DNA of 64,000 bases from Cryptosporangium arvum DSM 44712 (GTDB lineage: Bacteria; Actinomycetota; Actinomycetes; Mycobacteriales; Cryptosporangiaceae), in contig NZ_KK073874.1 of the NCBI RefSeq assembly GCF_000585375.1, forward strand, positions 3,720,001-3,784,000, given 5' to 3'. The translations under genes were made by a program, and so were the position numbers. Below are positions 20,485 to 30,244 of this stretch, piece by piece (within the stretch, counting starts at the first letter, position 1; each line of letters starts with the position of its first letter). Below the pieces are notes generated by a model. It ran no database searches. It was given only the letters and a program-made list of their open reading frames with translations, and had not been told where the DNA came from.

Positions 20485-22674
20485 TCACCGGCGACTCGTG
20501 CCGGGGGAGCCGCTCGGGCGCAGGCCCTTCACGCCATGTCGACGAAAGAACCCTGCTGATCGCCCGTGGGCAATGGGTGGCTGCGGCCAGATCCGTCGCG
20601 GCGAGAGCGCGATCACCAGTCGGGTCGGGATCGCACGCGCGCGGGAGAGGCGACGGCGCGCGCGGTCGGCGAACCACCAAGCGCTTTGCGCGTCGGTCTC
20701 GGTCGGACCGATCCGGCTGTAGCGGGCGGCGTCGGCCAGCGCGGCCAACGGGCGAACCTCGCCGATCGCCGCAGTGGAGAGCTCGCTCGCCGCGACCAGC
20801 ACGGACTCGGAGCTCGAGACGATCCGCGGGTCGATCCGGTCTCCTGCGAGAGTCTCGATGAGGTCCTCCCAGGCTCCGGCCGTCCGACCGCGGGGGGACA
20901 GCAGGCGGCGGCGCGTCCGCCGGCGCAAGCGGGGCACTACCTGAGCCGCGGTGACGTACGCCGCTGCGAGTATCAGGAGAGCGGCAGTGGCCCAGACGCC
21001 GATCGGCCGTGTGGGCGTCGGTGCTGAGCGCAGCCGCGGATTGACGACTTGGGGCACCGACGACGGAGCGAGGGCGTCCGGCCTGGCTGCCGGTGGCGGC
21101 GCCGCGGTCGGCAAGGGAACCTCTGCGGGCGCTTCCACTCGGGCCTTCCGGGCCGGCCGTGCGGGGCCGGCTGGCTGCAGTCCGGCCCATCCACCGGCAA
21201 GATGCACTTCGGTCCACACCGATACATCGCGAGCGAGGACCGTCGAGCGTCCGCTCGGACAGAATCCGACGACGATCCGACTCGGCACTCCGAGTCGTCG
21301 GGCCGCCAACGCCAGCGTCACCGCGAACTGCTCAGTAGTTCCCGATCGCCGGGTCAGGAAGCGGCGAACATCGCCGTACGTGTGGCCGCTCTCCGCGAGG
21401 GGATCGTTTCGATAGTCATCGCGCAGTAGCTTCTGCATGGCGACGATTCGTGCGTACGCCGACGTTCCGGGGCTCGCCTCCACGGCGTTGTCGAGCACGT
21501 CCGGCAAGCCGGCCGGGAGAGAGAGCGCGTCGGTGGGGCCGGAAGCGGGCCGGGTGTCGGTCGGATCGATCAGAGGCACCGACACCAGGGCGTACGTTCG
21601 TCCCCGTTCGACCGGAGCGATGGAGAGAAGGTCGCCCGTTTCGGTGTCCACCGCATCGACACCGCTACGGAGTCGGACCGGGCGATCAAGAGCGGGGAGG
21701 AAGGTGCCGCCGAGGCCGGCGATCGTCACTCTCTGCGCAATGCTGACCGGTCCCTCGGTACGTTCCCGGCTGGGCGGCACACCGAGGCCGGCCGGGGTGT
21801 AGCTCGTCGTGCCTGCGGTCCAATTCAGGCCGTCGAACCGAGACAGTGTCGTCAGTCGCCAGCACCGTGCTCCCGCCGCGGCCGCGGCGGTGAACAGCAC
21901 GTCGTTCGGGCGCACGAGCCAGGCGGAGACCCGATCGAGGGGATTGACGTCAGGACGCACCGCAACCGGGAGAGGCAGGACGCTCCGCGGGTCGGCCGGT
22001 TCGAGGTGCGTCCCCGCTACCCCGGCCACGGTGGCGACCAGCAAGAGGGCGACGGTTTGGACCGACGCTGCCGTCCGCCGCCCGGCATCGCTGTTGCTGA
22101 CGATCGCGCAGGCGAAGGCGGCGGCGAGCACCAGCGCGCCGGGCAGGACCGTCGCGAGCGCGTCCTGAGCTGCGGGCGCGGGTAGGGCGACCGCCAGACC
22201 GACGGTGAGCAGCGCGGCGGCGGGCACCATCGGAAGGAGGACCGAGCGCGATCGGACCGCCAGGTCCGCGGCCAGTGTGGTGCCCACCCACAGCAGCACG
22301 AACGGAACCGCCACCAGGTCCGGACGGGCCGGGGCCGGCAGCGTGATCGCGAACAAGCCGATCCACCCTCCCGTCAGCTCCGCCACCAGGTGACGAGGGC
22401 TCGACGAGACCGCCACTGCGAACACCGCCAGGCCGGCCGCTACCAGGGCCATGTGCGACCCGCCGCCCAGCGGTCGGCCCAGTCGTAGCAACGCGATCGC
22501 TATCGCTCCGAGAGGCACGACGACAGCGAGGACGAGCGGGACCACCACGTCCGCGAGTTCGAAAACGGCACCGAAGATCGCACCGGCCGCCACCACCCCC
22601 GTCGTCGCGGCGCCGATTCGTCCCGCCGCGACCCGGCGAGTCCAGTGCCGAGGAGATGGGCGGGGACTACTCAC
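20485..22674 (-). CDS. Transglutaminase-like membrane protein (DUF3488/TgpA type), catalytic triad apparently lost
   Basis: About 729 residues from the GTG at 22674, which overlaps the DUF58 stop (GTGA). It has a bundle of about six N-terminal membrane segments, a large extracytoplasmic region with a transglutaminase-like fold, one more membrane helix (WATAALLILAAAYVTAAQVV) and a cytoplasmic DUF4129-like tail. The core reads RSGTTEQFAVTLALAARRLG, then VPSRIVVGF, DVSVWTEVHL and GWAGLQPAGPA. Where active enzymes have Cys (GxC-EQFA), His (HAWxEV) and Asp (DPTP), this protein has Thr, Ser/Val and Gln. It is therefore probably a non-enzymatic scaffold or binding protein. It is co-transcribed with DUF58 and MoxR genes. 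Confidence 0.85.
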   Translation of the reverse strand: MSSPRPSPRHWTRRVAAGRIGAATTGVVAAGAIFGAVFELADVVVPLVLAVVVPLGAIAIALLRLGRPLGGGSHMALVAAGLAVFAVAVSSSPRHLVAELTGGWIGLFAITLPAPARPDLVAVPFVLLWVGTTLAADLAVRSRSVLLPMVPAAALLTVGLAVALPAPAAQDALATVLPGALVLAAAFACAIVSNSDAGRRTAASVQTVALLLVATVAGVAGTHLEPADPRSVLPLPVAVRPDVNPLDRVSAWLVRPNDVLFTAAAAAGARCWRLTTLSRFDGLNWTAGTTSYTPAGLGVPPSRERTEGPVSIAQRVTIAGLGGTFLPALDRPVRLRSGVDAVDTETGDLLSIAPVERGRTYALVSVPLIDPTDTRPASGPTDALSLPAGLPDVLDNAVEASPGTSAYARIVAMQKLLRDDYRNDPLAESGHTYGDVRRFLTRRSGTTEQFAVTLALAARRLGVPSRIVVGFCPSGRSTVLARDVSVWTEVHLAGGWAGLQPAGPARPARKARVEAPAEVPLPTAAPPPAARPDALAPSSVPQVVNPRLRSAPTPTRPIGVWATAALLILAAAYVTAAQVVPRLRRRTRRRLLSPRGRTAGAWEDLIETLAGDRIDPRIVSSSESVLVAASELSTAAIGEVRPLAALADAARYSRIGPTETDAQSAWWFADRARRRLSRARAIPTRLVIALSPRRIWPQPPIAHGRSAGFFRRHGVKGLRPSGSPGTSRR

Positions 22675-23804
22675 TGCTGTCCCCGCGTAGCGGCTGCCGC
22701 CAACCGCGCCCAACCAGCCAAGGCCGAGCGGAGATCGGCTGCGTCGACGATCGCCCACCGCGCCGACGCGACCGGCAGGTCGGCCGGCCGCACGTCGACC
22801 CGGACGACGACTGACCGTCGGCCCGGCGGCACCGCCGTGAGCAGGTCTGATGCCCCGCCGCTTCCCGTCACCACGGTAAACAGACCGGCGGGCCGGAGTG
22901 CCGGCACGGCTCGCCCCGGGCTGAGTCCGACGGTCCGGAGAAGCTCGTCGATCGCGTGCGGCGTCCGAGCGGTCTCGCCGGAGACGACCGTCAGCGTCGC
23001 CGCCGCGCCGACCCGCCGTGTCGAGTCGAGGATCGACGCGCTCACATCGACGGCCGTCTCGAAGGCGGCGGAGGCGTCCGGCCCACGATAGGCGGCGGGA
23101 TCCGTGTCGAGCAGGACCTCGATCGAAGGGTCGACCGGATCGACGTTCTGTCGGATCAACAGCGTCCCATCCGCCCGGCGACGGCTGGCCAGCCAGTGCA
23201 CACGGCGGACGTCGTCGCCGAACTGGTACTCCCGGAGGCTCGCGAAGTTGACGCCACCCTCCTGCCCGCCGAGCTGTCGCGGGGCGTCCGGATTCTGCCG
23301 GCCGCGGGCCCGGCCGATCTCCACCGGCAGGATTCTCGGCCCGACCTCGACGGCGACCGGTTCGCCCACCTGCTCTCTCCGGTCGAACAGCCCAAGAAGG
23401 TCACGATGGGCGATCGCGGGCGGCCCGATGACCAGTTCGCCTCGCCGGTCGGTCGGGACGTCGATCTCCAGCGGAGCCGCGGCCCGGCCGGAGCCGCGCC
23501 GGACCGGGACGACGATCTCCGCGCCGCCGCACGGCACCACCAGGGTGAAGGCGCCGCCGCGCGCGGACCGGCGGGTGACGTGAATCGCCACCCGGACCAC
23601 TTCGCCGCGCATCACCCGCCCTACCGCGGGGACCAACGAGACACTCGCCCGGCGCCGTGACCGCGCCGTCCACAGGAACGCGACGAGCACGGACACCGAC
23701 GCTCCGGCCGCGAGCAGCACCACGCCTGGGTATCGCGTCACCAGAGAGATCGTCGCGAGCACAGCGGCGGCCGCGCAGACCTGCGCGCCGTTCCGGGTGA
23801 TCAT
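22671..23804 (-). CDS. DUF58 domain-containing protein
   Basis: 377 residues. Two N-terminal membrane segments (VCAAAAVLATISLVTRYP and VVLLAAGASVSVLVAFLW) precede a beta-rich region and the DUF58 core. The core is FASLREYQFGDDVRRVHWLA, then TLLIRQNVDPVDPSIEVLLD, a VWA-like fold whose metal site starts at the DTD of LLDTDPAAY. DUF58 proteins are nearly always encoded with MoxR AAA ATPases and often with TgpA-like proteins. They are thought to act together in assembly of membrane or envelope protein complexes. Seven bases separate it from moxR upstream, and it is overlapped by the transglutaminase-like gene downstream. Confidence 0.93.
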   Translation of the reverse strand: MITRNGAQVCAAAAVLATISLVTRYPGVVLLAAGASVSVLVAFLWTARSRRRASVSLVPAVGRVMRGEVVRVAIHVTRRSARGGAFTLVVPCGGAEIVVPVRRGSGRAAAPLEIDVPTDRRGELVIGPPAIAHRDLLGLFDRREQVGEPVAVEVGPRILPVEIGRARGRQNPDAPRQLGGQEGGVNFASLREYQFGDDVRRVHWLASRRRADGTLLIRQNVDPVDPSIEVLLDTDPAAYRGPDASAAFETAVDVSASILDSTRRVGAAATLTVVSGETARTPHAIDELLRTVGLSPGRAVPALRPAGLFTVVTGSGGASDLLTAVPPGRRSVVVRVDVRPADLPVASARWAIVDAADLRSALAGWARLAAAATRGQQ

Positions 23805-23811
23805 CTGACGC

Positions 23812-24834
23812 TCAATGGACGCCGGTCGGAATCATCGGTGCCGTAGCGAGCGCGTCGTCGAGGACCCGCGCGGGGTCGACGCCGTCCAGTTCGGCCCGGG
23901 GCGTCAGCAAGATCCGATGACCGAACACCGGCACGGCGAGGGCACGGATGTCATCGGGGACCACGTAGTCCCGTCCGGCGGCGGCGGCGTAGACCCGAGT
24001 TGCCGCGACCATCGCCTTGCCGCCGCGCGGACTGACGCCGAGCGTGACCAACGGATGGTTCCTCGTCGCGTCCGCGATCGTCACGATGTGGGACAGGATG
24101 CTGTCGGCGATGTGCGTCGTCTCCGCTTGCCGAATGAGGGCCTGCACCGTCGGCGGATCGAACGGGGGCGCCGCGCCCGTGGCCGACGCCGGAGCTCCGC
24201 GCAGCATGCGGACCTCGGCGTCGTGATCGGGATAGCCGAGGTGGATCCTCATCAGGAATCTGTCGAGCTGGGCCTCCGGGAGGGGATAGGTACCCGCCAT
24301 CTCGACCGGGTTCTGAGTCGCGACGACGACGAACGGACGCGGTACCGGCCGCGGGTCGCGGTCGATCGTCACTTGGCGTTCTTCCATCACCTCGAGCAGC
24401 GCCGACTGCGTCTTGGGAGAGGCCCGGTTCACCTCGTCGCACAGCACGATGTTCGCGAAGATCGGTCCCTCCCGGACCTCCTCACCACCTCCCGGATGCA
24501 GCACGAGAGTGCCGGTGATGTCGGTCGGGAGGAGGTCCGGCGTGAACTGTATTCGCCCCCAGGTGCCGCCGACCGCGGTCGCCAACGCTCGGGCCAGGGA
24601 CGTCTTGCCGACTCCGGGAACGTCTTCGATCAGGAGATGCCCCTCCGCAAGAAGGCAGACCAACGCGAGGCGTACGGCGCCGGGCTTCCCGATGATCGTC
24701 TCTTCGACCACGTCGGACATTCGCGCGAAAGCCGCCGCGAACGCGGTCGCGGGCCCGACGTCCGAGCCGATCCGTTCACGCCCTCGAAGCCTGTACCGGC
24801 CTACCGCCGGGTTCTCGTCGTCCTCCACCGCCAC
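23812..24834 (-). CDS. MoxR family AAA ATPase
   Basis: About 340 residues. Walker A is EDVPGVGKTSLARALA and Walker B is IVLCDEVNRASPKTQ. The MoxR signature QFTPDLLPTDITG is present, with sensor I FVVVATQNPVEMAGTYPLPE and sensor II GVSPRGGKAMVAATRVYA. The GTG at 24834 (VAVEDDENPAVGR) is the likely start; an upstream extension to 24960 is cysteine-rich and not family-like. MoxR ATPases act as chaperones with VWA-type partners, here the DUF58 protein. It is the first gene of the operon, facing the beta-propeller/beta-helix gene across about 200 bp. Confidence 0.93.
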   Translation of the reverse strand: MAVEDDENPAVGRYRLRGRERIGSDVGPATAFAAAFARMSDVVEETIIGKPGAVRLALVCLLAEGHLLIEDVPGVGKTSLARALATAVGGTWGRIQFTPDLLPTDITGTLVLHPGGGEEVREGPIFANIVLCDEVNRASPKTQSALLEVMEERQVTIDRDPRPVPRPFVVVATQNPVEMAGTYPLPEAQLDRFLMRIHLGYPDHDAEVRMLRGAPASATGAAPPFDPPTVQALIRQAETTHIADSILSHIVTIADATRNHPLVTLGVSPRGGKAMVAATRVYAAAAGRDYVVPDDIRALAVPVFGHRILLTPRAELDGVDPARVLDDALATAPMIPTGVH

Positions 24835-24931
24835 CCCCGCGTCCCCCTGCGCCGCTAGCTGGCATGAGCATGGGCTACCGCCGGCCACCGAGCTGTTCCG
24901 CCTCGTAGATCCAGCCGAAAGACGAGGCTGT

Positions 24932-24950
24932 GGTGTCCGGCAAGGACACC
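24932..24950. promoter_or_regulatory. Perfect inverted repeat in the MoxR / propeller-helix intergenic region
   Basis: GGTGTCC-GGCAA-GGACACC is a 7+5+7 palindrome, 98 bp upstream of the moxR start and 91 bp upstream of the plus-strand gene, almost midway. It could be an operator for both divergent units. No regulator gene is adjacent, so the protein that binds it is unknown. Confidence 0.45.
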
Positions 24951-25040
24951 CAGTGCGCACGTTCGGCGGAGCTGCACCTGTTCTCGCGGTCGATCGACGG
25001 AACTACCGTGATCGCTGGGGCGTGATCGCCAGGGGGAGCA

Positions 25041-27056
25041 ATGACACCATCGACGCTACGGAACCGCGGTCCACGGTGGCAGATCCTGCTGCGCCTCGGC
25101 CTCGTGGCGGCACTGCTGGGAACCGTGTTCGGCGTCGCCGCGCTGGGACGCTCCGGAGAGCTGGCCGGTCTCACCATGCGGTCGGCCACGGCCTGGCTGA
25201 TCAGCACTCGTCCTGGTCTGGTTACCCGAGTCAACGGTCTCTCCGCCGCCCCGGAGACAGCCATCGCGCTCCCGACCGTGCGCGGCCATGATGCCGACAC
25301 CGGCCAGATCGGCTCCGCCGTGCTGGTGGCCGATCGGAAGACCGGCGAGGTGACGCGTGTCGACACGGCCGCCCTGCAAGCCGGCCAACCGACGCCGCTC
25401 GGTCGTGAGGCGTCCCGGCTGCTCGCCTCCCCGACCGCCGCGGCACTCGTGGATCTTGCCGCCGGAACGGTCACCTGGGTAGATCCCGCAACGGGTACTC
25501 CCCGAGGGGAGTCGTCCCCGCTCGGTACCCCGTTCTCCGACGCGGTGATCACGGCGGACGGCACGGTGTGGGTCGTCGCACCTGGGCTTGGGTCGGCGAT
25601 TCCGCTGCGCTCGTCCGGCGCCGGGAGTCCGGTTCCGGTGGGCGACCCGGGAGAGGCTCTCGGACTGACTCTCCTGGCTGGTCGCCCGGTCGCGGTGGAC
25701 GCCGCGACCGGCGTGGCGCGGCGAGTCGACACCGCGGACCGCGCTGTGATCGCGCGGCTCCCGGCAGGCGTGGATCCGGTAGCGGCGGCCGGCTCGAACG
25801 ACGGTTGGAGTCTCGTCGCCGTCGTGGGGAGTCCGACCAGGTTGATCAGCGTCGACGTGCGCTCGGGCCGGACCACGACGATCGCGCTGCCGGGCGTCGA
25901 CCTCGGCGATCTCGACGAGCCGGTCCTGGCCGGTGGACTGACCTACCTACCCGACCACCGGCGTGGCCGGATCCTGGTGACGGACGGAACCGGCTCGCCA
26001 CCGCAGAGCGTGCCTGTCACCGGCCACGCCGGCGAGTTGCAGGCTTTCGCGCAGGACGGGCTCGTCTGGGTCAACGCCCCGGCGCGTCCGGAGGCCGTCG
26101 TCTTCAGCGGGAGGGTGCACCGGCCGATCCGGAAATACGCGGCCGTCGCCGGATCTCCCGAGCCGACAGCGACGGCCACATCGAGCCAGTCGCCGTCGCC
26201 GGAGCCGACGAAGAGCCCTCCGCCGTCGGCACAGTCCAGCGTGGGGCCGACCGCCAGTGCGAGCAGTTCCAAGAGCACGGACTCCTCCGGTTCGGAGCCA
26301 GGCAGCTCGCCGACGCCCGACCCGGGGCAGAGCAGCGGTCCGGAGGCCCCGAGTCCCAGCCCGACCGCGGCGCCGCCGGCTTCGCCCGTGCGCTGCGGAG
26401 CGACCCTCACCGAGAGCGCGACGCTCGACCACGACCTCGACTGCACGACGTCGATCGGTGTCATCATCGGCGCGAACGACGTGACGCTCGACCTCAACGG
26501 TCACACGATCCGCTACACGTCGGGCTTCGCCGGAGACGAGCGGCCGATCGGGATTCGGATCACCGGCGTGCGCGGAACCGAGATCCGCAACGGAAGCGTC
26601 CGCGGTTTTCGCGACTACATCGATATCCGGGATGCGCAGGACGTCCTGCTCTCGGGACTCGATCTGGTGGATTTTCGGGTCGGCCTCCGGATCAACGACT
26701 CACGTGGAGTCCACCTCGAACGAACTCAGGTCGTCAATGCGGACAACGGTGCGGTCACCGTCGACGTCGCGAACTCCGAGATTCAGGGCACCGACGGCAC
26801 GAACATCGCCGGCTTCCAAGGAAACTGCTATCAAAGCACCTGCACCATGCTCGACAGCTCGATCGGGCATCGCTACTTCTACATCAACAATGGCAGTACC
26901 TTCGTTTTCCGCCGTGGCCAGTTCCTCAACCGCCTCACCGTGGTGTACGAGGGGTGCTCGTTGACCGTCACGGACAGCCGTCTCGGAAGCGGAAACCTGG
27001 GCGGAACGGGGGAACGTGTCCTCGAGAACAACACGGGGACCATCAACGACAACTGA
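25041..27056 (+). CDS. Membrane-anchored beta-propeller / right-handed beta-helix protein
   Basis: 671 residues. A basic N-terminus and one hydrophobic segment (ILLRLGLVAALLGTVFGVAA, about residues 15-34) look like a signal anchor. Residues ~70-370 are short repeats such as GSAVLVADRKTGEVTRVDT and GTVTWVDPATGTP, typical of a YncE/NHL-like propeller. Residues ~375-455 are a Ser/Pro/Thr-rich linker. From about 460 a right-handed parallel beta-helix begins (GVIIGANDVTLDLNGHTI, then GIRITGVRGTEIRNGSVRGF) and runs to the C-terminus. The layout predicts an exported protein with a sugar- or polymer-binding end; no catalytic residues are recognised. AGGGGGA precedes the ATG. It is divergent from moxR-DUF58-TgpA. 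Confidence 0.8.
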   Translation: MTPSTLRNRGPRWQILLRLGLVAALLGTVFGVAALGRSGELAGLTMRSATAWLISTRPGLVTRVNGLSAAPETAIALPTVRGHDADTGQIGSAVLVADRKTGEVTRVDTAALQAGQPTPLGREASRLLASPTAAALVDLAAGTVTWVDPATGTPRGESSPLGTPFSDAVITADGTVWVVAPGLGSAIPLRSSGAGSPVPVGDPGEALGLTLLAGRPVAVDAATGVARRVDTADRAVIARLPAGVDPVAAAGSNDGWSLVAVVGSPTRLISVDVRSGRTTTIALPGVDLGDLDEPVLAGGLTYLPDHRRGRILVTDGTGSPPQSVPVTGHAGELQAFAQDGLVWVNAPARPEAVVFSGRVHRPIRKYAAVAGSPEPTATATSSQSPSPEPTKSPPPSAQSSVGPTASASSSKSTDSSGSEPGSSPTPDPGQSSGPEAPSPSPTAAPPASPVRCGATLTESATLDHDLDCTTSIGVIIGANDVTLDLNGHTIRYTSGFAGDERPIGIRITGVRGTEIRNGSVRGFRDYIDIRDAQDVLLSGLDLVDFRVGLRINDSRGVHLERTQVVNADNGAVTVDVANSEIQGTDGTNIAGFQGNCYQSTCTMLDSSIGHRYFYINNGSTFVFRRGQFLNRLTVVYEGCSLTVTDSRLGSGNLGGTGERVLENNTGTINDN

Positions 27057-27067
27057 GCGGTCCGCCA

Positions 27068-29869
27068 CTACCGCCCCTGAGGGCAGGCCAGACCCTCCGC
27101 CGGGACGTCGTGTCCGGTCACCGTCGTCCACTCCGCCGAGGTGAGCTGCCGTCCGGCGACCCGGCAGACGATCGCCGACCACGACTGACGCGCGAGATTC
27201 CACCGGGTCAAGTAGCCGTCCGCGGACAACGTCAGCAGTTCCGACGTACCCGGACGAGAAACCACGGTGGTCCGCTGGGCGGACGCGGGCGAGTGCTTCC
27301 CCGGTTCGCCCCGCATCGGCAGGGGAAACCCGCCCAGCAGGTAGCCGCTGTCCGCGTCGACGATCTCGACTCCACCGCTGGTCGTCACCCGAGCGAACCA
27401 GCGGCCCCCGCGGTCCAGCGCGCGGCCTCCGGCGATCGTGTACTGGGCGGGCCCCACGGGCAGTGTTCGGACAGCCTGTCCGGTGCGCCGCGAATAGATG
27501 ATCAGCGAGCCGTCCCGGCGAGAGGCGGCGAGGTCACCGCCGGCCGTGAACCACAACGAATCGGGCTCCGGCCCGGTGAGTGTGATGGTGGAGAGTGGCG
27601 AGCGCAGGGCGGTCCACTGGATCCGTCCGTCCACGACCTGTGCCACCGACGACCGGTCTGCGGCCACCGCGGCCGCGTCATAGGAGGACGATTCGTTGGA
27701 GCCGTTCCGCCAGACGCGGATCCGGGTGCCGTCCACGCGCCGTTCCTCGATCTGCCCGCGGGGCCCCAGGACAGTAAGACTGCGCTCACTTGAGTCGGCC
27801 TGCATCGCTCCGAATGGAAAGGCGCTCCCGGCCGGCCTCTCCCATGCGCCGGCCGTGGTGACCGCGCCGCCAGGGCGCCACAGGGCAGGGTCGTACTCAG
27901 TGTCGACTCCGAGCACCAGGTGGCCATTCGAGGACACCCAGTCGGGCCGGGCCAGCGCCGTTGTCGAATCGACAGCTCTTCCGGTGGTCAGATCGACCAA
28001 CGTGGTACGGCTACCGACCAGGACGTCCTTGTCCTCACCGGAGATCGCCGCGAACCGCCCGTTGTCGCTGACCGCTACGTCCGGTGCGGACATCGACTGA
28101 CGCCGGTTCCAGCTAAAGCTGAATCCCGCCGTGGTTTGGGCCAGTCTTCCCGGTTGCTCCAGGTCCCACAGAACGACCGTCGTTCCGAATGCCGAGATCA
28201 GCCGGCGGCTGCCCCCGTAGAACTCGAGTGCACTCGCGCCCGGCACGCCCGACAGCAACTCGGACGATGCCGTGAGACCGTACGGCGCGGCACCTTGTTC
28301 GCCGATGCCTGCGACGTGGATCCCGTCGGCACTTGGAACAGCGACGAGCTTGCCATCCGAGCTGACCGCAGTCGCCAACTCGTCTGCCACGCCAGTGTCC
28401 GCGTGTGCGGTCTCGGCCGACTTGGTTGCCGCCGTCGCCGTCACCGTGACGCTGCCGTTGATGGAGAACCCGTGGAACTCGCACCCCGCGGAGTAGCTCT
28501 CCTGACCTAGGCGAGACACCCAGGGAAAGAGCATTTCTGGGGTGTACGCCGCAATCTGTGAAAGATTGGTACCGCCGTACGTGACCACGCGCCGAAATCC
28601 TCCGCACGCACGGACGGTGTCGTCGTCGACGAACCTGAGCCGGCGCAGGGTGAACCCGTTGATGGGTCCGCGCCGGATCTCCTTCCCCGTTGCCGCGTCG
28701 TTGATCGTCAGAACGGTGTTGGTGTCACTTACGACCCACGCGACGGCAACGCGCCGCTGTGACGCGGAGAGCCCCACAGCGCCGACAGCAGAGGACCCCC
28801 TGATCCGCTGCTGGGACGCACCCTGGGGATGCCACACCACGACGTCGCGGCCCGCTACGGCCACCACGGTCTTTCCGTCGTTCGCCACGACGACCTGACT
28901 GATCTGCCGATCACCGGTGTCGGTGGCGCCGATCCGGTTACCCGCTGCGTCCCAGGCGAGCAGCCGACCGTCCCGAAGACCGGCGACGGCCACGCTGCCG
29001 TCCGCCGAGCCCGCGACCGCCGACACCTCAGCACCGGTAGGAAGGAAGCGACGCAGGCTTCGGCTGGCCGAGATGACCTGGAACAACGTGGATTGGATCC
29101 GCGGATCCCCGGGGCGCAGGCGGTAGGCCTCCACAGCCAAGAGTCCGGCGAGATCCAGACGTGTCGGCAGCTGTGCCTGCGCCGCCGCCGACAGCCGCTG
29201 CGCCTCGGTCGCGATCCGTTCCGCGGCCAGGGTGGTCCTCCGGTTGTGCCAGATGAACCCCGTGGCGGTAGCGGCGAGGACGACCGCGACCGCCATCGCG
29301 GTGAACGACGCCACTCGCTGGCGCGCGCGTTTGCGGTCGTCGTCGAGCAGGGACGCCATCGGACGTTCTCGCACCGGCGCCAGGATCATCGCCAACCGCT
29401 GCCGATCGAATCGTGGACGTCCGTCCACGATCGGGGTGGTGCTCAGATCAACCAGGACACGCTCGCGCGTGAACACACCGTAAAGGTCACGCGGAAGTGC
29501 GGTGCTGGACGGAGCGAAGTCACGACCGACCCAGTTGATGGTCCCCGAGGTCCAAGCGACGAGGAGACGAGAGGGATCCCGATTCCGGAGCCACCACTGC
29601 ACCTCGTGCCGGACCCACCGCGAATTGGCCGATTCCGGGGAGGCGAGCAGAAGGAACCAGTCAGACCGACTCAGCGCTGCCTGGGCGGTGTCGTCCAGTT
29701 CGACACCTGCGGCCATGTCGGTCTGATCACGGAAGACCCGCAAGCTCCGCAGGGCCCACCACGGACGCGCGAACCGCTGCAAATCGGTTTGCAGCGCCTC
29801 CGCGGTTGTCGAGTCGGCTCCGTGGTTGTACGAGATGAAGAGGTCGTACCAGCGATCGGACCTACTCAT
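27068..29869 (-). CDS. TIR domain - transmembrane - WD40-like repeat protein
   Basis: 933 residues. Residues 5-150 are a bacterial TIR domain: RWYDLFISYNHGADSTTAEA, RVFRDQTDMAAG, LSRSDWFLLLASPESANSRW. Glu-89 in WVRHEV sits where NADase-active TIR domains carry the catalytic glutamate. Residues 187-207 (VASFTAMAVAVVLAATATGF) form a membrane helix, followed by a helical LAAERIATEAQRLSAAAQAQ and LAGLLAVEAYRLRPGDP segment seen in STAND/WD40 proteins. The rest is a degenerate WD40-type propeller ending with the family tail (AGRQLTSAEWTTVTG). No NTPase domain is present. A GGGGGA site precedes the ATG at 29869. It converges on the beta-helix gene with 11 bp between stops. Confidence 0.85.
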   Translation of the reverse strand: MSRSDRWYDLFISYNHGADSTTAEALQTDLQRFARPWWALRSLRVFRDQTDMAAGVELDDTAQAALSRSDWFLLLASPESANSRWVRHEVQWWLRNRDPSRLLVAWTSGTINWVGRDFAPSSTALPRDLYGVFTRERVLVDLSTTPIVDGRPRFDRQRLAMILAPVRERPMASLLDDDRKRARQRVASFTAMAVAVVLAATATGFIWHNRRTTLAAERIATEAQRLSAAAQAQLPTRLDLAGLLAVEAYRLRPGDPRIQSTLFQVISASRSLRRFLPTGAEVSAVAGSADGSVAVAGLRDGRLLAWDAAGNRIGATDTGDRQISQVVVANDGKTVVAVAGRDVVVWHPQGASQQRIRGSSAVGAVGLSASQRRVAVAWVVSDTNTVLTINDAATGKEIRRGPINGFTLRRLRFVDDDTVRACGGFRRVVTYGGTNLSQIAAYTPEMLFPWVSRLGQESYSAGCEFHGFSINGSVTVTATAATKSAETAHADTGVADELATAVSSDGKLVAVPSADGIHVAGIGEQGAAPYGLTASSELLSGVPGASALEFYGGSRRLISAFGTTVVLWDLEQPGRLAQTTAGFSFSWNRRQSMSAPDVAVSDNGRFAAISGEDKDVLVGSRTTLVDLTTGRAVDSTTALARPDWVSSNGHLVLGVDTEYDPALWRPGGAVTTAGAWERPAGSAFPFGAMQADSSERSLTVLGPRGQIEERRVDGTRIRVWRNGSNESSSYDAAAVAADRSSVAQVVDGRIQWTALRSPLSTITLTGPEPDSLWFTAGGDLAASRRDGSLIIYSRRTGQAVRTLPVGPAQYTIAGGRALDRGGRWFARVTTSGGVEIVDADSGYLLGGFPLPMRGEPGKHSPASAQRTTVVSRPGTSELLTLSADGYLTRWNLARQSWSAIVCRVAGRQLTSAEWTTVTGHDVPAEGLACPQGR

Positions 29870-30244
29870 GGAGTCCCCCCAAGGACGGCAGGTCGCCAGT
29901 TTCGCCAAGCTCGACCAACGGAGTTGTCCGCCGACTGGTTCGTTCACCGCTCCGGACCAGCGTTGCCGCCTCACACGATCGGATGGTCCGACTCGGCTTC
30001 AGAGTCAGATTCGCTGGCCGACCAGCAGCGCCGGGGCGGAGATCCGGCGCCGAGCGGTCGGGGTCGTCACGGCGGCAGATGGGAGCGCCCGATGAGTCCC
30101 GAGCGAGGAGACCACGCCTTCCGATGTGCTCCCACGCGGTGCGCAGGAATCGGCAGGTGGTCGGTCAGCCAGTGGTCGAGACGATCCGGTGTCGTCGCTG
30201 GACCGGGGTAGGCCGTTGCCGGTTCGGTGTCGACACTGTCGGGT
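29870..30244. other. Gene-free stretch upstream of the TIR-WD40 and YCII genes
   Basis: This is the shared upstream region of two divergent genes. Open frames on both strands have no recognisable family. I see no canonical promoter; a short GACTC...GAGTC inverted repeat near 29985-30005 is too weak to call. Confidence 0.4.

Follow-up and report, generated by a model that had tools for sequence, protein, structure and literature searches.

A propeller-MoxR-DUF58-TgpA gene set common in one actinobacterial order and its Cryptosporangium arvum copy with a beta-helix and an adjacent TIR gene

The window analysed here is a 64-kb stretch of the genome of Cryptosporangium arvum DSM 44712 (genome label G000; the loci compared with it carry labels in L, and their genomes labels in G). 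Its minus strand encodes, in this order, a MoxR AAA+ ATPase (23812–24834), a DUF58 protein (22671–23804), and a TgpA-like membrane protein (20485–22674). A gene for a 671-residue propeller-helix protein (25041–27056) runs divergently on the plus strand, and 206 bp of intergenic sequence (24835–25040) separate the divergent starts. A gap of 7 bp separates the MoxR stop codon (23812–23814) from the start of DUF58 (23804), and the DUF58 stop codon (22671–22673) overlaps the GTG at 22674 as GTGA. Because of this overlap, the TgpA-like protein is best read as 729 residues from that GTG rather than from a longer frame starting at 22758. The MoxR gene most likely begins at the GTG at 24834, which is preceded by GGGGGA and is preferred over a longer open frame reaching 24960. 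The order, coordinates, overlap, and spacing of these genes are as the initial annotation of this region described them. The segment which that annotation covered ends just short of the next gene, which proved relevant: a 968-residue open frame on the minus strand (27068–29974) encoding a TIR domain (TIR_2, 3.4e-10), one membrane segment (residues 223–241), and a WD40-like part. It is convergent with the propeller-helix gene, from which 11 bp separate it, and its homologues suggest a start near 29869.

The MoxR protein matches the Pfam families AAA_3 (7.7e-57) and AAA_lid_2 (6e-22), and the motifs GVGKTS and VLCDE are readable in it; it also matches bpMoxR (8.9e-10), but the AAA_3 score is far higher. 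The DUF58 protein (377 residues; Pfam DUF58, 3.9e-6) has a hydrophobic N terminus in the hydropathy profile. In the TgpA-like protein (TgpA_N, 1.6e-11; Transglut_core, 1.7e-14), seven predicted N-terminal membrane segments precede a transglutaminase-like domain, one C-terminal membrane segment, and a tail. Hydropathy and the usual topology rules would place MoxR inside the cell, DUF58 at the membrane, and the transglutaminase-like domain outside with its tail inside. By the same rules, the propeller, linker, and beta-helix of the divergent protein would lie outside the cell, and the TIR protein would have its TIR domain inside and its WD40 part outside.

The only hydrophobic segment of the propeller-helix protein spans residues 15–33. 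It is followed by a propeller (about 39–370), a linker rich in Ser, Pro, and Thr (about 371–445), and a right-handed beta-helix (446–671). The protein itself has no Pfam match, and a single-sequence search of the PDB was also empty. A five-row profile of residues 39–370, searched against solved structures, found designed Pizza6 propellers, the best at 5e-5, with weak matches to YncE (0.012) and NirF (0.13), and one homologue (L076) exceeds the Pfam cut-off for the PQQ_2 propeller. The C terminus aligns with the C termini of L001, from Asanoa ishikariensis, and L078. We assign the beta-helix on the basis of these homologues, since L078 exceeds the Pfam Beta_helix cut-off (8.7e-11) and L001 matches the family below it (6.6e-4). 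The architecture first proposed for this protein, an N-terminal membrane segment with propeller, Ser/Pro linker, and beta-helix, was thus borne out by hydropathy, profile search, and alignment with homologues. The beta-helix part in the window (26376–27056) has 226 residues, against 331 in L001 and 345 in L078, and so is about 105–120 residues shorter; it ends exactly where the inverted TIR gene lies. One possible cause is a small rearrangement.

A contig search with the full protein returned a single relative, that of A. ishikariensis (29% identity over residues 36–664). Its locus has the layout of the window, with TgpA, DUF58, and MoxR genes divergent from the propeller-helix gene, together with a TIR gene in inverted orientation. 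The propeller alone matched three actinobacterial replicons in a plasmid collection, and all three matches have FN3 C termini with MoxR, DUF58, and TgpA genes nearby (in L003, MoxR lies 7.7 kb from the propeller). The search was then extended to 298 genomes of the window's order with a five-row propeller profile (A2), and the hit regions were scanned with small HMMs built from the proteins of the window, L001, L003, and L004 (A2 for the propeller; HMMER --max). A2 matched in 95 of the 298 genomes (E ≤ 1e-5) and in 12 of 396 genomes of a phylum sample (1e-8); as this profile sees it, the propeller is therefore uncommon outside the window's order.

With E ≤ 1e-9 as the threshold, 117 propeller proteins from 116 loci were counted. 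MoxR, DUF58, and TgpA genes all lie within about 10 kb of the propeller in 104 of the 117, and 91 of these linked sets share one co-directional order with the operon downstream. Five of the 104 needed extension loci, among them L076, whose TgpA gene is 10.4 kb away. One propeller (L061) has DUF58 and TgpA only, and 12 have none of the three genes, five of these with less than 6.5 kb of flank on one side. The seven lone propellers with adequate flanks (L043, L046, L054, L059, L072, L191, and L192) indicate that the propeller can exist alone; the genomes of the first four hold a linked propeller in addition. Among nine weaker frames outside the 117 (E above 1e-9; L080, L095, L096, L097, four frames of L193, and L194), only two have operon genes nearby, L080 with all three and L194 with DUF58 and TgpA, and the other seven have none. 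On rescanning, L098 contained no propeller; the still weaker matches L112, L114, and L115 have no operon genes near them, and five weak matches (G269, G056, G175:1445972, G278:6252253, and G605:5950409) lie outside the locus set. A divergent order beside the operon is rare; it occurs in L001, the window, and L184, whose propeller gene is truncated by the end of the contig. Within the window's genus, three other genomes were sampled; G011 has the propeller, and G023 and G032 do not.

The copy number of TgpA genes follows the same association. At least two are present in 81 of 88 propeller genomes versus 17 of 210 others (Fisher, 6e-47, a value that ignores kinship among these related genomes, in which both searches score only a few candidates each), and in 18 control regions fetched for TIR genes elsewhere, all four core genes are absent. 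A chance neighbourhood of propeller and operon is rejected on the linkage in 104 of 117 cases, the 18 control loci, and the TgpA copy numbers. The association suspected in the initial annotation is real, as homologues of the propeller mostly occur with the operon.

While the propeller is constant, the C-terminal module varies among the 117 homologues. It is FN3 in 89 (three-sequence HMM), PASTA in three (L068, L070, and L076), and beta-helix in three (the window, L001, and L078, the last with PKD and beta-helix); the remaining 22 are Pro-rich or have no domain match, some of them appearing FN3-like by eye and some being truncated at contig ends. The initial annotation called the domain combination unfamiliar from described systems. 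This holds in part, in that the pairing of propeller and beta-helix is rare, but the propeller-FN3 form is common, and one relative of that form is annotated as a "fibronectin type III domain-containing protein" in a public record. The L078 TgpA falls outside the group formed by the window and Asanoa proteins in the TgpA tree, although its branch is long and its placement unsure, and the beta-helix may thus have been fused to the propeller twice.

Alignment of the TgpA-like proteins revealed a second constant feature. The catalytic columns were fixed by L039 (G000:C1:7138000-7157900), an unlinked paralogue from the window's own genome with the motifs RGYCEQYA and DAHAW. In the window protein, the catalytic Cys, His, and Asp are replaced by Thr, Ser, and Gln. 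The Cys is retained in none of 107 linked TgpA proteins (106 distinct genes, one being read twice in L087 and L105; those of L080 and L194 are included), and its column holds Ser in 90, Ala in 12, Thr in two, Pro in two, and Asp in one. The His is retained in a single linked protein, that of the weak propeller locus L194, and the Asp in 94. The unlinked controls, L039 and L196 to L205, retain both Cys and His in 11 of 11 cases, with Asp in nine and Glu in two; they are a nonrandom sample, L196 to L205 having been picked among high-scoring TgpA_N matches on contigs without, or far from, any propeller match. In a tree of 73 TgpA rows, a branch supported at 100/98 separates the controls from all other rows, and the window and Asanoa proteins are sisters (99/97). 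L039 belongs to a second MoxR-DUF58-TgpA set in the window's genome, with its triad intact, and the surrounding 20 kb contains no propeller match.

Since the Cys is retained in 0 of 107 linked versus 11 of 11 unlinked proteins, the linked TgpA-like protein is most likely a noncatalytic membrane partner. Another activity, with Ser in the place of Cys, is possible and would be compatible with these substitutions. An active TgpA that cross-links the surface protein was considered and rejected, given the loss of catalytic residues in the linked copies. The role of membrane receptor suggested earlier for the TgpA-like protein gains support from the loss of the Cys. The contrast between linked and unlinked TgpA proteins is the new element here. 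The Pseudomonas aeruginosa TgpA (PA2873), which shares the DUF3488/TgpA_N and Transglut_core architecture (both above the Pfam cut-off in the window protein), differs in this respect: it is reported to have a Cys-His-Asp triad and to be active in vitro (PMC3507681), whereas all three residues are lost in the window protein.

The closest published relative of the module is the bifidobacterial PFNA operon, which comprises pkb2 (a kinase), fn3, aaa-atp/MoxR, duf58, and tgm (PMC8430577). The likeness lies in a MoxR-DUF58-TgpA-like trio, adjacent and in the same direction, beside one large exported protein. This type of trio beside an exported FN3 protein, as well as the idea that MoxR may fold FN3, is already known from that source. 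The window differs in its divergent propeller gene, its adjacent TIR gene, and a partner protein with a beta-helix and no fn3 match, although most of the propeller homologues do carry FN3. Other papers state that PFNA occurs only in bifidobacteria (PMC10688814), that the moxR operon of mycobacteria is similar to it (PMC12067865), and that a MoxR-DUF58-transglutaminase arrangement is frequent downstream of moxR, the function of DUF58 being unknown (PMC6803598). In text searches, the word "propeller" was absent from PMC10688814 and PMC12607495, and "beta-propeller" was absent from PMC8430577 and PMC6803598. A literature search in which subscription journals were thinly covered found no publication joining MoxR, DUF58, and a TIR domain and, judged by titles and abstract openings, none on DUF58-linked transglutaminase pseudoenzymes; the triad loss, the propeller, or the wider spread of the module may already be in print elsewhere.

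A MoxR ATPase, a propeller, and variable modules are also combined in the MoxR-vWA-centric ternary conflict systems of Kaur et al. (2020). In the beta-propeller type, the propeller is fused C-terminal to a vWA domain, and most descriptions of the type come from other phyla (PMC7159879). The window propeller, in contrast, belongs to a separate membrane-anchored exported protein that has no vWA match. Membership of these systems was rejected, as the propeller is encoded by a gene of its own.

If the module were purely a chaperone system, MoxR, DUF58, and TgpA would fold or display one large exported adhesin, and the neighbouring kinase and TIR genes would be unrelated. In favour of such a function, nearly every locus has one propeller protein per core, close by and mostly co-directional, and the bifidobacterial studies report that FN3 mediates adhesion (PMC8430577, PMC12607495), MoxR being its proposed folder. 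Yet the neighbouring genes point beyond folding. Of the 116 propeller loci, 37 have a Ser/Thr kinase gene, a further likeness to PFNA, no more than 5 kb from the cluster (two-sequence kinase HMM); among the 104 loci that hold a TgpA gene, the figure is 35. None of 20 controls, namely the 18 TIR loci, L039, and L040, has one. In a survey of the flanks of 36 loci, 20 of 124 open frames matched Pkinase, the gene calls being approximate. In addition, TIR or caspase frames overlap cluster genes in L001, L041, and L190. Nearby kinases together with overlapping TIR and caspase frames argue for signalling rather than folding alone. This objection is tempered by the 79 of 116 loci without a kinase within 5 kb, which include every locus of family f13. 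As a complete account, the chaperone function strikes us as possible though somewhat doubtful, and parts of it are compatible with the reading that we prefer below.

The same HMM (E ≤ 1e-15) found no kinase in the 64-kb window, in which PFNA's pkb2 thus has no counterpart, nor in L001, L041, and L078; L190 has none within 5 kb. The Asp of the HRD motif is retained in 22 of 45 aligned kinase frames (some from extension loci, with one gene read twice), and about half therefore look like pseudokinases. The f12 kinases beside clusters (in L073, L079, L083, L086, L186, and others) often have HGGVxPxN in place of HRDxKPxN; by this motif, they are apparent pseudokinases beside a pseudo-transglutaminase.

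The kinases, both with and without the HRD Asp, also bear on the idea of an envelope stress or wall-status sensor, in which PASTA, FN3, and beta-helix modules would read the cell's own peptidoglycan or exopolysaccharide, and the kinase or TIR protein would adjust growth. The PASTA repeats of L068, L070, and L076 fit such a role. No wall-linked family, on the other hand, is among the 25 commonest of 121 flanking-gene families, and beta-helix folds act more often on polysaccharides outside the cell. We regard wall sensing as a tentative proposal, which could hold alongside the preferred reading.

The TIR-membrane-WD40 gene adjoins the cluster in three of 116 loci: the window, L001, and L041, the last from genome G011 of the window's genus. 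It overlaps the propeller-helix gene in L001 (stop 9992, start 9983) and TgpA in L041 (stop 15192, start 15185), that is, at two different positions of the cluster. A caspase-nSTAND1-WD40 frame in L190 (15557–18998, cut by the locus end) overlaps with its start the end of the linked TgpA gene; it occupies the slot that the TIR gene holds in L041. TIR genes of this type are present in 23 of 298 genomes (E ≤ 1e-20, three candidates being scored per genome), and among the copies listed, a comparison of coordinates by eye shows a propeller adjacent only in G000 and G011 and not in the 21 other genomes. In the TIR tree, the proteins of the window and Asanoa pair as sisters (97/96), yet each of them is closer by BLAST score to the unlinked L118 protein (G188) than to the other. 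Because the L041 TIR protein falls in another clade, such clusters appear to have acquired a TIR gene two or more times or to have exchanged it. In the three cluster-linked TIR proteins, the Glu of the SxWVxxE motif, which we take to be the NADase Glu, is invariant. With regard to partners of the Thoeris or SAVED-TIR defence type, a PADLOC scan of the cluster proteins only gave SAVED_TIR (5e-8) and ThsB (5.7e-5) on the TIR protein and TRIP13 (9e-4) on MoxR, with no match on the DUF58, TgpA, and propeller-helix proteins.

One might argue that an ordinary MoxR-DUF58-TgpA operon has come to lie beside the divergent beta-helix gene and the TIR gene by chance, and a TIR association in three loci only would suit this view. 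For the propeller gene, it is refuted by the linkage described above. The recurrence of the five-gene set in Asanoa, albeit with the TIR gene inverted, and the sister relationships of the window and Asanoa proteins for both TgpA and TIR speak against it as well, and we consider it highly improbable. We infer that the TIR gene is a member of the module at the window locus.

The four genes for propeller, MoxR, DUF58, and TgpA-like protein travel together; the propeller is fixed, the outer module is exchanged, and the linked TgpA lacks its Cys. The module is common in one actinobacterial order, and the window copy carries a rare beta-helix and an adjacent TIR gene. The explanation that we prefer, while judging the case for it to be evenly balanced, is that the window holds a variant of an actinobacterial envelope module: a receptor-like complex with a dead TgpA, assembled or reset by MoxR and DUF58, and with an intracellular output. 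The propeller would be the handle recognised by the outer domain of the pseudo-TgpA, while DUF58 and MoxR, working as co-chaperones on the inner side and driven by ATP, would assemble or reset the complex. The exchangeable outer module would meet the ligand, whether a sugar, the wall, or another cell, and an accessory gene would provide the intracellular output, a kinase elsewhere and the TIR-membrane-WD40 protein in the window. The chaperone part of this mechanism goes back to the initial annotation, and the PFNA authors had suggested the like for FN3 (PMC8430577). What that annotation had linked, propeller and operon, as well as a receptor role for TgpA, gains support from our comparison; MoxR and DUF58 as the loader and the propeller protein as the client would make a plausible chaperone-client assembly.

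Several results count against the envelope-module reading. The TIR gene adjoins few clusters and in the window is convergent rather than co-directional, 12 of the 117 propellers, five of them with short flanks, have none of the three operon genes, and the phylum sample yielded few matches. The seven weaker frames that lack operon genes, the closeness of the window and Asanoa TIR proteins to L118 by BLAST score, and the possible Ser-based activity of the linked TgpA weigh in the same direction. A transmembrane alarm may also be imagined, in which the dead transglutaminase would hold, and MoxR and DUF58 would prime, an exported propeller receptor whose ligand-reading tip can be exchanged. When this tip met a competitor, a phage, or a damaged wall, the system would fire an exchangeable intracellular effector (kinase or pseudokinase, TIR, or caspase-STAND); we deem this unlikely.

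A whole branch of MoxR-DUF58-transglutaminase clusters with a fixed propeller partner and a dead domain offers a handle on the targets of MoxR and DUF58. It is also a warning not to take the product of tgm in these clusters for an enzyme, and it extends a PFNA-like arrangement beyond bifidobacteria.

A mobile-element origin found no support. In a tblastn search against plasmids, the propeller-helix protein matched three replicons from actinobacteria, 0.4 to 11.9 Mb in size, and a beta-helix-only protein of Methylomagnum, a second query added a weak Rhodococcus match (3e-3), and viral contigs contained no relative. One locus, L003 (CP108401.1, 120877–141848), carries propeller-FN3, DUF58, TgpA, and MoxR genes on a 438-kb linear plasmid with primase and integrase genes adjoining, the integrase gene being near the MoxR gene. 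In L044 (7397–12765), an EccB (type VII secretion) gene immediately precedes a tandem pair of propeller-FN3 genes and the MoxR-DUF58-TgpA trio, and genome G004 holds four propeller copies.
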